From the NCBI GenBank assembly GCA_026386845.1, contig JAPLMW010000091.1, positions 1 through 32,559 on the forward strand: a stretch of DNA of 32,559 nt, written 5' to 3'. Made by a program: the position numbers and the translations under genes. Positions within the stretch are counted from its first letter, which is position 1. Each line of letters opens with the position of its first letter. Shown in pieces: positions 25,782-32,559 of the stretch. The notes under the pieces were generated by a model. The model saw only the letters and a program-made list of their open reading frames with translations, was not told where the DNA came from and ran no database searches. This DNA comes from Phycisphaerae bacterium. GTDB taxonomy: Bacteria > Planctomycetota > Phycisphaerae > Sedimentisphaerales > UBA12454.

Positions 25782-26420
25782 GTGTCCAAAATCAAAATTA
25801 ATTTTCAAATTTCGTATCCAGCATTCATCGAAAGCATCATCGTTTATTTTCTGCTGCGATATAGAAAAAAACATTACGGGTTTGCTTTTCGGCGCATTAA
25901 ATTGATTACAGGCAAAAAGGTTGATGTAAAGTATCGTTATACTATTGTTGACCCCCAGGATTATCAGAAATTGTATCAGTACCCCTGGCTGCTTTTGGAA
26001 AGCAAAAGCGAAAATTTCTACGCTGTCCGGTGTGATGACAAAACAATTATGCGAATGCACAGAGTTATTATGAACGCCCCGGCAGGGGTAATTGTTGACC
26101 ATAAAGACGGCAACGGCCTGAATAACACCAAACAAAATTTGCGTTTCGCAACGCGTTCTCAAAATAACTGCAATAAGAGGCGATTTAAAAAAGACGCCAC
26201 TTCCAGATATAGAGGGGTCAGCAGGGAAAAAGGCCGCAGAAAATATCGTGCCAATATATGTTTTAAGGGGAACAGTATTTATTTGGGAAGATTTGGTAGT
26301 GAAGAAGAAGCGGCAAGGGCGTATGACGAGGCGGCGAAAAAATATCACGGAGAATTCGCAGTGTTAAACTTCAATGAAGATAACCACGAAGAAGCAAAGA
26401 GAACAGATTGCAGATTATAG
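25782..26420 (+). CDS. HNH endonuclease with AP2 DNA-binding domain (homing-endonuclease-like)
   Basis: 212 residues, GTG start with AGAAGGAG 7 bases upstream. An HNH_3-type nuclease motif lies at about 91-132: MHRVIMN (His93), [14 protein letters not shown] (Asp106-His107, Asn114), [14 protein letters not shown]. An AP2 domain follows at about 143-197: [55 protein letters not shown]2 proteins in bacteria and phages are mostly free-standing homing endonucleases. Here the gene is not inside another gene and has its own promoter, so it may be a relic or domesticated DNA-binding protein. After the AP2 end, the residues [12 protein letters not shown] are encoded by dispersed-repeat DNA that supplies the stop. 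Confidence 0.9.
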
Positions 26421-26453: not shown

Positions 26454-26549
26454 AAATATCGGTAACGTTAAGCTTATAGCGGTTTTTGCTTGCCTAAAGA
26501 GCAAATTCTAAATAGAATCCGGTAATAGTTATATAATGGATTATTGTGT

Positions 26550-28730
26550 ATGGCTAAAAACGGGTCAGGAGAAAATAATAGTGATATATCCGCCGAAGAG
26601 GGGGCGGATAAACTTGTAAGCCGCTGCGGCAGCGAGCCGGGCGCCTTTGCACTGCTTTACGACATATATTACGAAAAAATATTCAGCTACTGCATCGGCA
26701 GAGTCTTCGGGCGGCAAGTCGCGGAAGACCTTACAAGCACCACTTTCAATTCGGCTGCCAAGACGGTATCAGGATTCCGGGGCAAAACAAGAATTGAATT
26801 CGTCAACTGGCTTTATGCAATCGCTACTGTAAAAATAAATGCGTATCTGAAAAAGAAGAAGGCCGCAGAAAAATCCGCGGCGCCGCAGAGGCAGGATTTG
26901 CGGCCGGATACAATTACCTGGCCGATTCTGCACAACGTTATTTTAAGGCTCAAGCCGGAAGAGCAAACCGCCATTGCCCTTCGATTTTTTGAAAATCTGA
27001 CTGTTGACAGAATCGCCGAAATTACAAATTCAAAGCCGAAGGATGTGCGGCTCAGAATCGCGAGGGCTATTGAAAATATAAAAATATTCGGCACAGAAAA
27101 ACAGTTTGAAAATGCCGTAAAAAAACTCGGCATTGACAATACGCCGGATGCCGGCCACAAGGAACGACTTGGTGCGAAAATCCTTGTCTCGTTCAATTCC
27201 GCCGGCGGGGAAAAACATCGGACACCTTTATATTCTTTTGCCGCTGCGATTGTTTTAATAACTGTCGGTCTGCTTGTGTGGTTCGGCAATTCAGGCAGGC
27301 TGCCGACCATACCGCGAGGTATCGTAAAACATCTAAAACGGACGACAGCGGAGGTGAATCTGCCGCCGCAGATAGAAAAATCACGGCTTGAAAAAATCAA
27401 ACAGCTTGCCGCTGAAAAAGACATTGCCGGACTTCTGGAAATCCTCAAAGGCAATGATTTAACCGCGAAACTGCTTGCCGCGAAATTCCTTGCGGAAATT
27501 ACCGATTCCAACACTGCCGATATAATGAAACTTGTTTCTCCGGCAGAAAAACCGACTGCACAAAAGAGCGAACAGCAAAAATCGCTGTTAATAAGAACAA
27601 TAGACAGGAAAACAAAACAGCCGCTTGCCGATGTTTCGCTGCAGATTAGATTTAACGACGAGATAGACACACGTAAAGTTCCCACAGACAGCAATGGACG
27701 ATATTTGCTGGCGCTGCCGGCGGAGCCGTTAAATCAAATACAAGTGCGTGCGGTCATAAAAGGATACGCAGCGATGAAAATGCAGCGGCGCTCAGCGCCG
27801 ATTGTGCCGGAGGAAGTTTTGTTTGAGATGTCGCCGGTCAGGGAAATCGGCGGGCTTGTTATGGATGAGCAGCTTAAGCCGGTGGAAGATGCCGGCGTAA
27901 AAGTGCGGGTTGACACTGACCCGAATTCTGAATTGCCTATGGCTGATATAGACGAAATTTTTAAGACCGATGTCAATGGCATCTGGCGATGCGGCAGCAT
28001 TCCTCAGGATGTCTGTCAAATCCAGGTTTGCGCAATGCACCCTGATTATATTGTGCCGGAAAAATATCAGTCTGCGATTATAGAACAGCTCGAAAACTTA
28101 TCGTTTCTTTCAATTCTCGAAAAGGGTATCACTATTACCGGCGGAGTATTCGATCAAGACAAGAAGCCTTTGCAGGCAACTGTCGGCAGGGGCGCGTATT
28201 ATGAAAAACAGAAATCTGTAAATTGTGATGCCAACGGCGTGTTCAGATTTGACAACATTTCTGCCGGAATGGAAATTTTCACGGCGCAATGCACCGGCGC
28301 CGCTCCGCAGATACAGCGGATTGATGTTGGTCCAAATATGCCGCCGATAGTTTTTAGTCTCGAACCTGCAAAAATAATCCGTGCGCGAGTCGTCGATATT
28401 AACAGTGTGCCGGTAGAAGGTGTCTATGTTAAAGTCTCCTCATGGCAGGGATTCAGCTCGCTGAACTTTGAGGCGGCAACCGATGCAAACGGTTTCTTCC
28501 GATGGACGGATGCACCGGCGGATGAAGTTTTGTTCGAGCTTTACAAGCCGGGCTATATGCGTGTAAGCAAATTCAGCATGACGAGCGAGAACGATTATGT
28601 AATTACGCTCCTGCCGTTAAAAGCCGGGACAGATGGTTTTGAAGGAGCTGAACCTCCGGTTTTTTCTCCCGAACGCGGTACGGCAGAATACAATTCCGCC
28701 CCTGCGCCGGCGCAACAAAAAAGCCCCTGA
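26550..28730 (+). CDS. Membrane-anchored ECF sigma factor-like protein with carboxypeptidase-regulatory-like repeats
   Basis: 726 residues from ATG 26550 (the track uses TTG 26544). Residues about 30-100 form a sigma70 region 2 (FALLYDIYYEKIFSYCIGRV, AEDLTSTTFNSAAKT, FVNWLYAIATVKINAYL). About 125-178 is a sigma region 4 HTH (LRLKPEEQTAIALRFFENLTVDRIAEITN). One transmembrane helix follows at about 229-246 (FAAAIVLITVGLLVWFG). A helical HEAT-like stretch (SRLEKIKQLAAEKDIAGLLEIL) and three or four beta-sandwich repeats of CarboxypepD_reg type make up the rest (LLIRTIDRKTKQPLADVSLQ, GGLVMDEQLKPVEDAGVKV, ITGGVFDQDKKPLQATV, RARVVDINSVPVEGVYVKV). This places a sigma module in the cytoplasm and a large domain in the periplasm in a single chain. 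Planctomycetes are known for ECF factors with C-terminal extensions. A regulated release by proteolysis is conceivable. No strong Shine-Dalgarno is seen. Confidence 0.88.
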   Translation: MAKNGSGENNSDISAEEGADKLVSRCGSEPGAFALLYDIYYEKIFSYCIGRVFGRQVAEDLTSTTFNSAAKTVSGFRGKTRIEFVNWLYAIATVKINAYLKKKKAAEKSAAPQRQDLRPDTITWPILHNVILRLKPEEQTAIALRFFENLTVDRIAEITNSKPKDVRLRIARAIENIKIFGTEKQFENAVKKLGIDNTPDAGHKERLGAKILVSFNSAGGEKHRTPLYSFAAAIVLITVGLLVWFGNSGRLPTIPRGIVKHLKRTTAEVNLPPQIEKSRLEKIKQLAAEKDIAGLLEILKGNDLTAKLLAAKFLAEITDSNTADIMKLVSPAEKPTAQKSEQQKSLLIRTIDRKTKQPLADVSLQIRFNDEIDTRKVPTDSNGRYLLALPAEPLNQIQVRAVIKGYAAMKMQRRSAPIVPEEVLFEMSPVREIGGLVMDEQLKPVEDAGVKVRVDTDPNSELPMADIDEIFKTDVNGIWRCGSIPQDVCQIQVCAMHPDYIVPEKYQSAIIEQLENLSFLSILEKGITITGGVFDQDKKPLQATVGRGAYYEKQKSVNCDANGVFRFDNISAGMEIFTAQCTGAAPQIQRIDVGPNMPPIVFSLEPAKIIRARVVDINSVPVEGVYVKVSSWQGFSSLNFEAATDANGFFRWTDAPADEVLFELYKPGYMRVSKFSMTSENDYVITLLPLKAGTDGFEGAEPPVFSPERGTAEYNSAPAPAQQKSP

Positions 28731-30923: not shown

Positions 30924-30957
30924 GGCAAAATGTTGCAATAAAGCAACATTTTTTGCC
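30924..30957 (+). terminator. Rho-independent terminator after the His-tailed protein
   Basis: Stem AAAATGTTGC / GCAACATTTT with loop AATAAA, followed by further T residues and extended by GGC / GCC. Confidence 0.8.
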
Positions 30958-31028: not shown

Positions 31029-31059
31029 TTGACACTATGGGGGGGGGGGTAATTATGTA
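31029..31059 (+). promoter_or_regulatory. Promoter with an 11-G homopolymer spacer (candidate phase-variable promoter)
   Basis: A perfect TTGACA (31029-31034) is followed by CTAT, eleven consecutive G (31039-31049) and TAATTATGTA. The best -10 near the correct distance is TATGTA (31054-31059) with a 19-base spacer, longer than optimal; losing two G would give 17. Poly-G spacer tracts are the known basis of phase variation at the Neisseria porA promoter. The -10 match is only moderate. Confidence 0.6.
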
Positions 31060-31071
31060 TATGAGATAACC

Positions 31072-31098
31072 GGGTGGGACGTGTCGGGCTCATCAGGG
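31072..31098 (+). other. G-quadruplex-capable leader
   Basis: GGG-T-GGG-ACGTGTC-GGG-CTCATCA-GGG satisfies the G3N1-7 rule, and three more GGG runs follow before the start codon. ATGAG (31061) can also pair with CTCAT (31090), and AACGC with GCGTT (about 31100-31118), so alternative folds exist. It lies in the predicted 5' untranslated region. Confidence 0.55.
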
Positions 31099-31156
31099 AA
31101 ACGCATTGTACGGGCGTTGGGAACTGGGAAGCTTGTAAAATTAGGAGATTTTAACG

Positions 31157-32559
31157 ATGGATAAAAAATTAATTCCATTCGACAAGTTCAGGACAAGTCT
31201 AAGAGGCTGGTTTTTATTATGTTTATTATTAAACGTGTCTTCTGCCGGCGATTTGAAACAGGCACAGAATAATGCAATGGAATCTCGGTATAATAAAAGT
31301 TTAGAATACGACGGACAATATACATTTGGCAATAATTATTTTGAAATAGGTCCTTCTGCCAGCGGCCAAGATGGCGGTTATTATATTGATGGAGAAGGAA
31401 TAGATAATTTCGGGTCGACCAGTTTACATGAAAAAGCCCATATGGGCTACTTTCTGAGCACTTGGGGTACGTGGACGAATTATTTAAGTAGAAGAGCAAC
31501 GGAGGATGCGGATAGAGATATGATAAAAGATTCGGATGAACGCAGATTGAGTTATGACTCTACCAAAAGGGGAACTTCGACAAACGTATACTGTACAACT
31601 GACGATTATGAAGATTATGCCTGCAGAATAGAATCGCGTTGGATAAACGGTTCGCGCGACAGCGAGGATTGGTCAGATACCGGCCACCAAGCGGCAGAAA
31701 ATATAAACGATGCAAATAGCGATAAGATAATGGAACAATTACTAAGTAAAGAAGCAAAAATACATCAGCAGGGTAGAATTGCATTATCGGCTTTAACCGC
31801 CCCCAACGATGTTTCCGGGATAGAAAAATATCTATGTTACAAAGGTAACTGGGAGGTAAGATACGAAGCAGTTTCAGTTTTAACCTCTATTCCGGGCAAG
31901 ACGTCAACAAAACGCCTTTTAGAAGTAATCTTTCAGGATACCAACCCCGCGGTTATATCGGCTGCGAGCCATAGCCTAAAAGGAAGAGGAGAAGACATAG
32001 CCAAAGATGAAATATTAAAATTATTAGACGTAAATAACGCCACAGTAACAAGAGACACGTTAGGGGTGATTCAAAAAATTGCGATAGATGAGGCGATATT
32101 AAAATCTTTAGCGAGAAAACTGGAAGATAAAAGATGGTATATTAGAACGGATACAGCCCGGGCTCTAAGTAAAGCAAAAGGCACTACAGGTGCAACTAAA
32201 GTTAATTTGATACTGAACGCGATGAAAGAGACATGTGAAAATCCTTCATCAGAGGGAGCAAAGGGTGAAGGAATGTGCGTGCCATTGGCGGAGCATATGA
32301 AATCTCTCTATAGATCGGCCATTTTAAATATGGGAGATTCAGCAATTGAGCCATTGAAAGAAAGAATGGGGAAAGAGAAAAATGAATTTGGGAAGAACTT
32401 AATTGTAACATTGGGACTCTTAGGAGAACGAAGTGTTTACCCTGATTTGATAGATATTGCAACCAAAGATGAAAATGTGTGGCTGCGCATCTCGGCCATC
32501 GATGGCCTGGGGAAAATTGGGAACAAGGAAGCAATTCCTTTCCTAAAAGAGGCTTTAAA
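31157..32559 (+). CDS. Secreted HExxH-motif protein with HEAT repeats, 3' end outside window; missing from ORF track
   Basis: Open from ATG 31157 to the right edge (467 codons visible, no stop), hence not in the ORF track. TTAGGAG lies 9 bases before the ATG. Residues 1-30 are a signal peptide (GWFLLCLLLNVSSA, cleavage after SSA); its n-region FDKFRTS is encoded by a dispersed repeat. HEKAH at 91-95 fits the zinc-protease HExxH pattern. It is followed by DADRDMIKDSDE (118-128), resembling a degraded calcium-binding DxDxDG-type loop, and a cysteine-containing aromatic region (VYCTTDDYEDYACRIESRW). From about 205 onward are HEAT/armadillo-type repeats (YEAVSVLTSIPGKTSTKRLLEVI, AVISAASHSLKGRGEDIAKDEIL, RISAIDGLGKIGNKEAIPFLKEAL). 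Probably extracytoplasmic; protease activity is inferred from the motif only. Codon use is AT-richer than in the housekeeping genes. Confidence 0.85.
   Translation, partial: MDKKLIPFDKFRTSLRGWFLLCLLLNVSSAGDLKQAQNNAMESRYNKSLEYDGQYTFGNNYFEIGPSASGQDGGYYIDGEGIDNFGSTSLHEKAHMGYFLSTWGTWTNYLSRRATEDADRDMIKDSDERRLSYDSTKRGTSTNVYCTTDDYEDYACRIESRWINGSRDSEDWSDTGHQAAENINDANSDKIMEQLLSKEAKIHQQGRIALSALTAPNDVSGIEKYLCYKGNWEVRYEAVSVLTSIPGKTSTKRLLEVIFQDTNPAVISAASHSLKGRGEDIAKDEILKLLDVNNATVTRDTLGVIQKIAIDEAILKSLARKLEDKRWYIRTDTARALSKAKGTTGATKVNLILNAMKETCENPSSEGAKGEGMCVPLAEHMKSLYRSAILNMGDSAIEPLKERMGKEKNEFGKNLIVTLGLLGERSVYPDLIDIATKDENVWLRISAIDGLGKIGNKEAIPFLKEAL

Follow-up and report, generated by a model that had tools for sequence, protein, structure and literature searches.

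A run of 11 G near the end of a planctomycete contig probably forms a spacer prone to slippage within a sigma-70-type promoter, which stands before a conserved leader and the gene of a secreted HEAT-repeat protein and may vary expression between sister cells. We give this reading, which is built from sequence comparison, a probability of roughly 0.6. The G11 locus is not a lone case: it is, by its sequence, one of many poly-G promoters in the class.

Promoter and G11 tract

The analyzed window spans contig C17 (32,559 bp) of draft genome G000 (2.40 Mb in 96 contigs) from end to end. The promoter, leader and gene described below all lie on the forward strand. A perfect TTGACA followed by 11 uninterrupted G, as claimed by the sequence-only reading, was borne out, with the -35 hexamer at 31,029-31,034 and the G11 tract at 31,039-31,049, within the promoter spacer. 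The hexamer is conserved in all eight promoters of the leader family described below, and tracts of G7 to G10 occupy the same place in four promoters of a related genome, G007. The same reading had put the -10 at TATGTA, at a spacing of 19. That hexamer is present, but it is not the best candidate and was rejected, since homologous promoters give it no support and have their -10 immediately behind the run. The -10 is probably TAATTA (31,050-31,055, spacer 15), on the basis of homology to the other leader promoters and of its position abutting the run as seen throughout the class, or else the overlapping AATTAT (31,051-31,056, spacer 16). The homopolymer thus sits between the hexamers, with the -10 starting at 31,050, and the spacing of 15 or 16 bp (13-17 in relatives) is near 17 bp, as in porA-type promoters.

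A conserved GA, with which the leader begins in all eight copies, places the putative transcription start at 31,063 on the forward strand. This position is about 8 nt past the -10, at a spacing conserved in the eight copies, and it was assigned by sequence conservation. Because the start would fall near 31,063, the G run itself is expected to be untranscribed. The tract is followed by an AT-rich stretch before the start of the secreted-protein gene at 31,157, although the description of the surroundings as AT-rich DNA was overstated, the window having a GC content of about 44%. Between the upstream gene and the promoter lies a terminator-like hairpin (30,924-30,957, forward strand; fold of -16.1 kcal/mol, 3' arm rich in T), which is missing from the output of a consensus terminator scan.

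Long G runs are scarce in this genome. Its 2.40 Mb contain just seven runs that reach 8 G or more, and three of these reach 9 G or more; G11 is the longest, and it is the sole run of at least 9 G with TTGACA ahead of it. By our own estimate (3 x 7 / 4096, allowing seven eligible upstream offsets), the chance of finding a perfect TTGACA ahead of any of the three runs is about 0.5%.

Secreted HEAT protein and its neighbours

A Shine-Dalgarno sequence, AGGAG (31,143-31,147), precedes an open reading frame that starts at 31,157 and runs off the contig end at 32,559. An exact 141-bp overlap (window positions 32,419-32,559 and positions 1-141 of contig C32 of the same genome) indicates that C32 continues C17, and on it the protein reaches 521 amino acids. 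The description of the product as a secreted HExxH/HEAT protein agrees with what we found, namely HEAT repeats, a HEKAH motif and an N-terminus that is signal-peptide-like by a simple hydrophobicity rule, so that an exported protein follows the promoter as in porA-type systems. After the HEAT gene, C32 carries co-directional ORFs of 489 and 315 amino acids with leader-like N-termini and one encoding a 332-aa protein with a very high cysteine content, and we infer that these form one operon with the HEAT gene. The cysteine-rich protein (L091, 2092-3090) contains repeated CCNGSCC-like motifs. No ortholog of the HEAT protein that would allow the tract to be compared at the same locus was found in 59 relatives.

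Two other ORFs in the window were observed. One (26,544-28,730) encodes 728 amino acids in which sigma-70-like regions 2 and 4 are fused to carboxypeptidase-regulatory-like domains, and the product of the other (25,782-26,420) resembles, as judged by eye, an HNH nuclease with an AP2-type DNA-binding domain.

A conserved two-hairpin leader

The sequence following the putative start belongs to a small family of leader RNAs. A DNA search of the 59 relatives with the promoter and the next 60 nt gave matches at four places in G007 and once more, weakly, in the genome itself, and a covariance model added two copies in G004. This brings the leader family to eight copies in three genera of one bacterial family (G000, G004 and G007), the seven besides the G11 locus being L088, L089, L090 and L092-L095. 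All eight have TTGACA, a distance of about 32-35 bp to a common ACCGG, and the two-hairpin leader. Covariance models delimit a 59-nt leader at 31,063-31,121 with hairpins P1 (31,070-31,078 with 31,089-31,097) and P2 (31,100-31,104 with 31,114-31,118), and match within the own genome with E = 9e-19 (R1) and 7e-14 (R2). Compensatory changes were found at three pairs, one in P1 (G-C to A-U) and two in P2 (A-U to G-C and C-G to U-A), and 97% of the alignment cells are paired, as compared to 18-41% when the partners are slid. Support for the structure rests on this covariation, since the fold of the single leader sequence was no better than that of shuffles.

The leader is narrowly distributed. Searches covering the order (161 genomes) and the phylum (392 genomes) recovered it only from G000, G004 and G007; a search of 85,462 species genomes with the DNA pattern gave, besides G007, chance matches only, and viral contigs gave none. 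Assignment to a known RNA family was rejected, as the leader reached no curated threshold among 4227 Rfam families.

Six of the eight copies precede exported proteins of the TPR or HEAT type, in one case (G007 contig C223) with the gene cut by the contig end. Another precedes a small ORF and then a gene for a PAS-containing histidine kinase, and the last (L089) has a terminator-like hairpin and a T-run in place of a Shine-Dalgarno sequence and gene. At the G11 locus, the G run heads a conserved unit of promoter, two-hairpin leader, Shine-Dalgarno sequence and secreted protein.

Five of the eight promoters carry G7-G11: G11 at the locus and G10, G9, G8 and an interrupted G7 in G007. The homologous -10 is TAGAGT or TAGACT in G007, at spacings of 13-15, and TAATTA at the locus, directly after the run. 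The three promoters without a run have TATTAT (spacing 17), CATAGT (16) and TCTAAT (16), in each case ending seven nucleotides ahead of the conserved GA. Because three of the eight promoters have no run, the G run is dispensable for the leader unit, which counts against the reading that we prefer.

The homologous tracts also bear on the possibility that errors of sequencing or assembly produced the run or its length. In favour of an error, the genome is a 96-contig draft, and in the class-wide survey several runs have a contig end no more than 100 nt away and reach implausible lengths, such as G44, which makes the longest lengths untrustworthy. Against this, G007, an independent assembly, has runs at the homologous position, the run at the locus is internal, between unique sequence and a gene, and an artefact would not pick TTGACA. 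We therefore regard an error as very improbable.

Poly-G promoters across the order and class

Such loci follow a simple rule: TTGACA, a run of at least 9 G, TAnnnT and a secreted gene. By our tally, a wider pattern, TTGACA-N3-9-G7, had 107 raw matches across the order (161 genomes), whereas its mirrored control had 32. At 84 distinct loci of the order, a -10-like hexamer occurred at a spacing of exactly 17 in 18 cases, whereas distant offsets gave about 1.6; the C-run control loci had neither a 17-bp peak nor an abutting -10. For TTGACA-N1-9-G9 in 397 genomes of the class, we counted 53 matches against 8 in the mirrored control, an approximately sevenfold excess (our forward versus reverse-control tally, each hexamer counted once). 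Of the 68 class loci with enough flanking sequence, 33 have TAnnnT immediately next to the run, as compared to 0-4 at 30 control offsets.

Run length matters both for the abutting -10 and for the kind of gene that lies downstream. An abutting TAnnnT was found in 1/48 cases with G7, 6/20 with G8 and 35/73 with G9 or more (p = 8e-9 for G9 or more versus G7). The first ORF with an ATG and a Shine-Dalgarno sequence was signal-peptide-like, by a simple hydrophobicity rule rather than a trained predictor, in 6/19 (32%), 7/12 and 37/44 cases (about 84%), respectively (p = 8e-5 for G9 or more versus G7). Promoters with G9 or more head genes of small cysteine-rich exported proteins (up to 13.6% Cys) and of PEP-CTERM, prepilin-like and MauE-like proteins. 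These dependencies, together with the sevenfold excess of G9 or longer runs after TTGACA, argue against the run being a neutral spacer feature of chance or mutational origin that lacks regulatory meaning. Such an origin would suit the three of eight homologous leader promoters that have no run. It would also suit the G7 spacers, which stand before housekeeping genes and show a signal-peptide rate roughly as expected. Overall we consider a neutral origin improbable for the locus. Short C- or G-rich spacers are likewise present in this order at housekeeping genes such as that of GAPDH, a point against the slippage reading.

The main rival to a porA-like promoter is that the poly-G run is a fixed promoter element, either recognized by a protein (polymerase, sigma factor or regulator) or folded into an unusual DNA structure beside the -10, with instability as a by-product. 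Only G on the non-template strand is accompanied by an abutting -10 and a 17-bp peak, both of which are absent for C runs; slippage alone does not predict so strict a preference. Furthermore, roughly half of the loci have the run next to the -10, and the recurrence of the run before secreted proteins would suit a regulon. On the other hand, the run has no set size: its length ranges from 9 to 18 and the spacing in the abutting cases is spread over 11-20 bp. Promoters of the same leader that have no run presumably also work, and near-identical promoter copies differ in tract length (see below). We regard a fixed element as rather unlikely, though less so than a neutral origin.

Some small exported proteins behind poly-G promoters contain 9-14% cysteine (L246, L248, L257, L258, L261, L294, L298 and L300); of these, L246 and L300 gave no match in Pfam and L258 none in NCBIfam. 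A second promoter-leader cassette, TTGACATC-G13/G15-CTTGGTAGGCT, was observed at L307, L308 (G576) and L309 (G669). It is repeated within one genome and is common to two species of one genus.

Tract length in near-identical copies

As a proxy for change in tract length, we compared promoter copies with near-identical flanks. In genome G488, two promoters whose upstream bases agree at 60/60 positions differ by a single G (G11 and G12), and in G735, two promoters with 55/60 identical upstream bases have G18 and G9. The promoters of two species of one genus are 91% identical over 102 bp and have G13 and G15, while copies in G007 that are 87% identical over 327 bp have G10 and G8. Differing lengths on near-identical flanks and the spread in spacing fit fast length drift. 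The core of the earlier proposal, a porA-like promoter, is strengthened by comparison, since relatives and the class share the layout and near-identical copies differ in tract length. Its -10 and its spacing of 19 are probably mistaken, and it overlooked the conserved structured leader. The locus itself is a candidate for phase variation.

Proposed mechanism

In the reading that we prefer, a slippage-prone promoter spacer, TTGACA and TAATTA or AATTAT at 15-16 bp would form a sigma-70-type promoter, with sigma-70 as its presumed factor. The mRNA would begin with the two-hairpin leader and encode the secreted HEAT protein and probably further exported proteins. Slippage during replication would add or remove G residues and so alter the distance between -35 and -10. 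The usual distance is 17 bp. Since the present spacing is 1-2 bp under this value, more Gs should raise and fewer should lower expression. As a result, expression of the secreted operon would differ among sister cells. Reversible switching in populations and an effect on expression are predictions of this scheme.

For the class as a whole, the chances seem about even that it carries distributed, slippage-controlled poly-G promoters in which the run abuts the -10. These would mainly serve exported proteins of the small cysteine-rich, PEP-CTERM, prepilin and repeat types, and in some lineages the promoter would belong to a copied cassette that has a structured leader RNA of its own. This would give free-living bacteria the cell-by-cell surface diversification seen in pathogens. 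To our knowledge, phase variation has been studied almost only in host-associated bacteria; if our reading is true, bet-hedging at the cell surface would seem to be more general and to reach free-living planctomycetes. The poly-G promoter set is directly testable because its sites are set by a simple sequence rule, and the linked leader adds a small covarying RNA element that has no Rfam entry.

Comparison with known systems

Searches of the openly accessible literature gave no case of phase variation by homopolymers for planctomycetes, in line with the initial remark that no described case was known in Planctomycetota, and a general survey of homopolymer regulation leaves planctomycetes unmentioned. 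This kind of promoter is known already. As far as tested, what is new is its occurrence in this host group, the placement of the run right against the -10, its use throughout the class ahead of exported proteins, and the leader RNA linked to it. Like the cis-regulatory RNAs of Rfam, the leader is a short 5' element whose structure consists of covarying hairpins; it differs from them in matching none of the families searched.

The closest parallel is porA of Neisseria meningitidis, which has poly-G in the -35/-10 spacer and a 17-bp optimum (PMC7864442). Both have homopolymeric G between the hexamers, near the 17-bp optimum and before an exported protein. The planctomycete promoter belongs to another phylum, its run abuts the -10, it has a conserved two-hairpin leader, and its layout is common to many promoters of the class. 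Switching has been demonstrated for porA and is predicted for the planctomycete locus. The tpr genes of Treponema pallidum have, at several places per genome, runs of 8 or more G close to the promoters of proteins that are surface-located or secreted (PMC7864442), and in all these respects resemble the planctomycete promoters. In tprL, however, the run overlaps the -10 and leaves the -35/-10 spacing unchanged (PMC7864442), unlike the spacer run described here. Finally, in Neisseria opc a poly-C tract covers the -35 region (PMC7864442). Homopolymer length tunes transcription in opc, as we propose for the planctomycete locus, where the G run instead lies in the spacer and C runs have no promoter signal.
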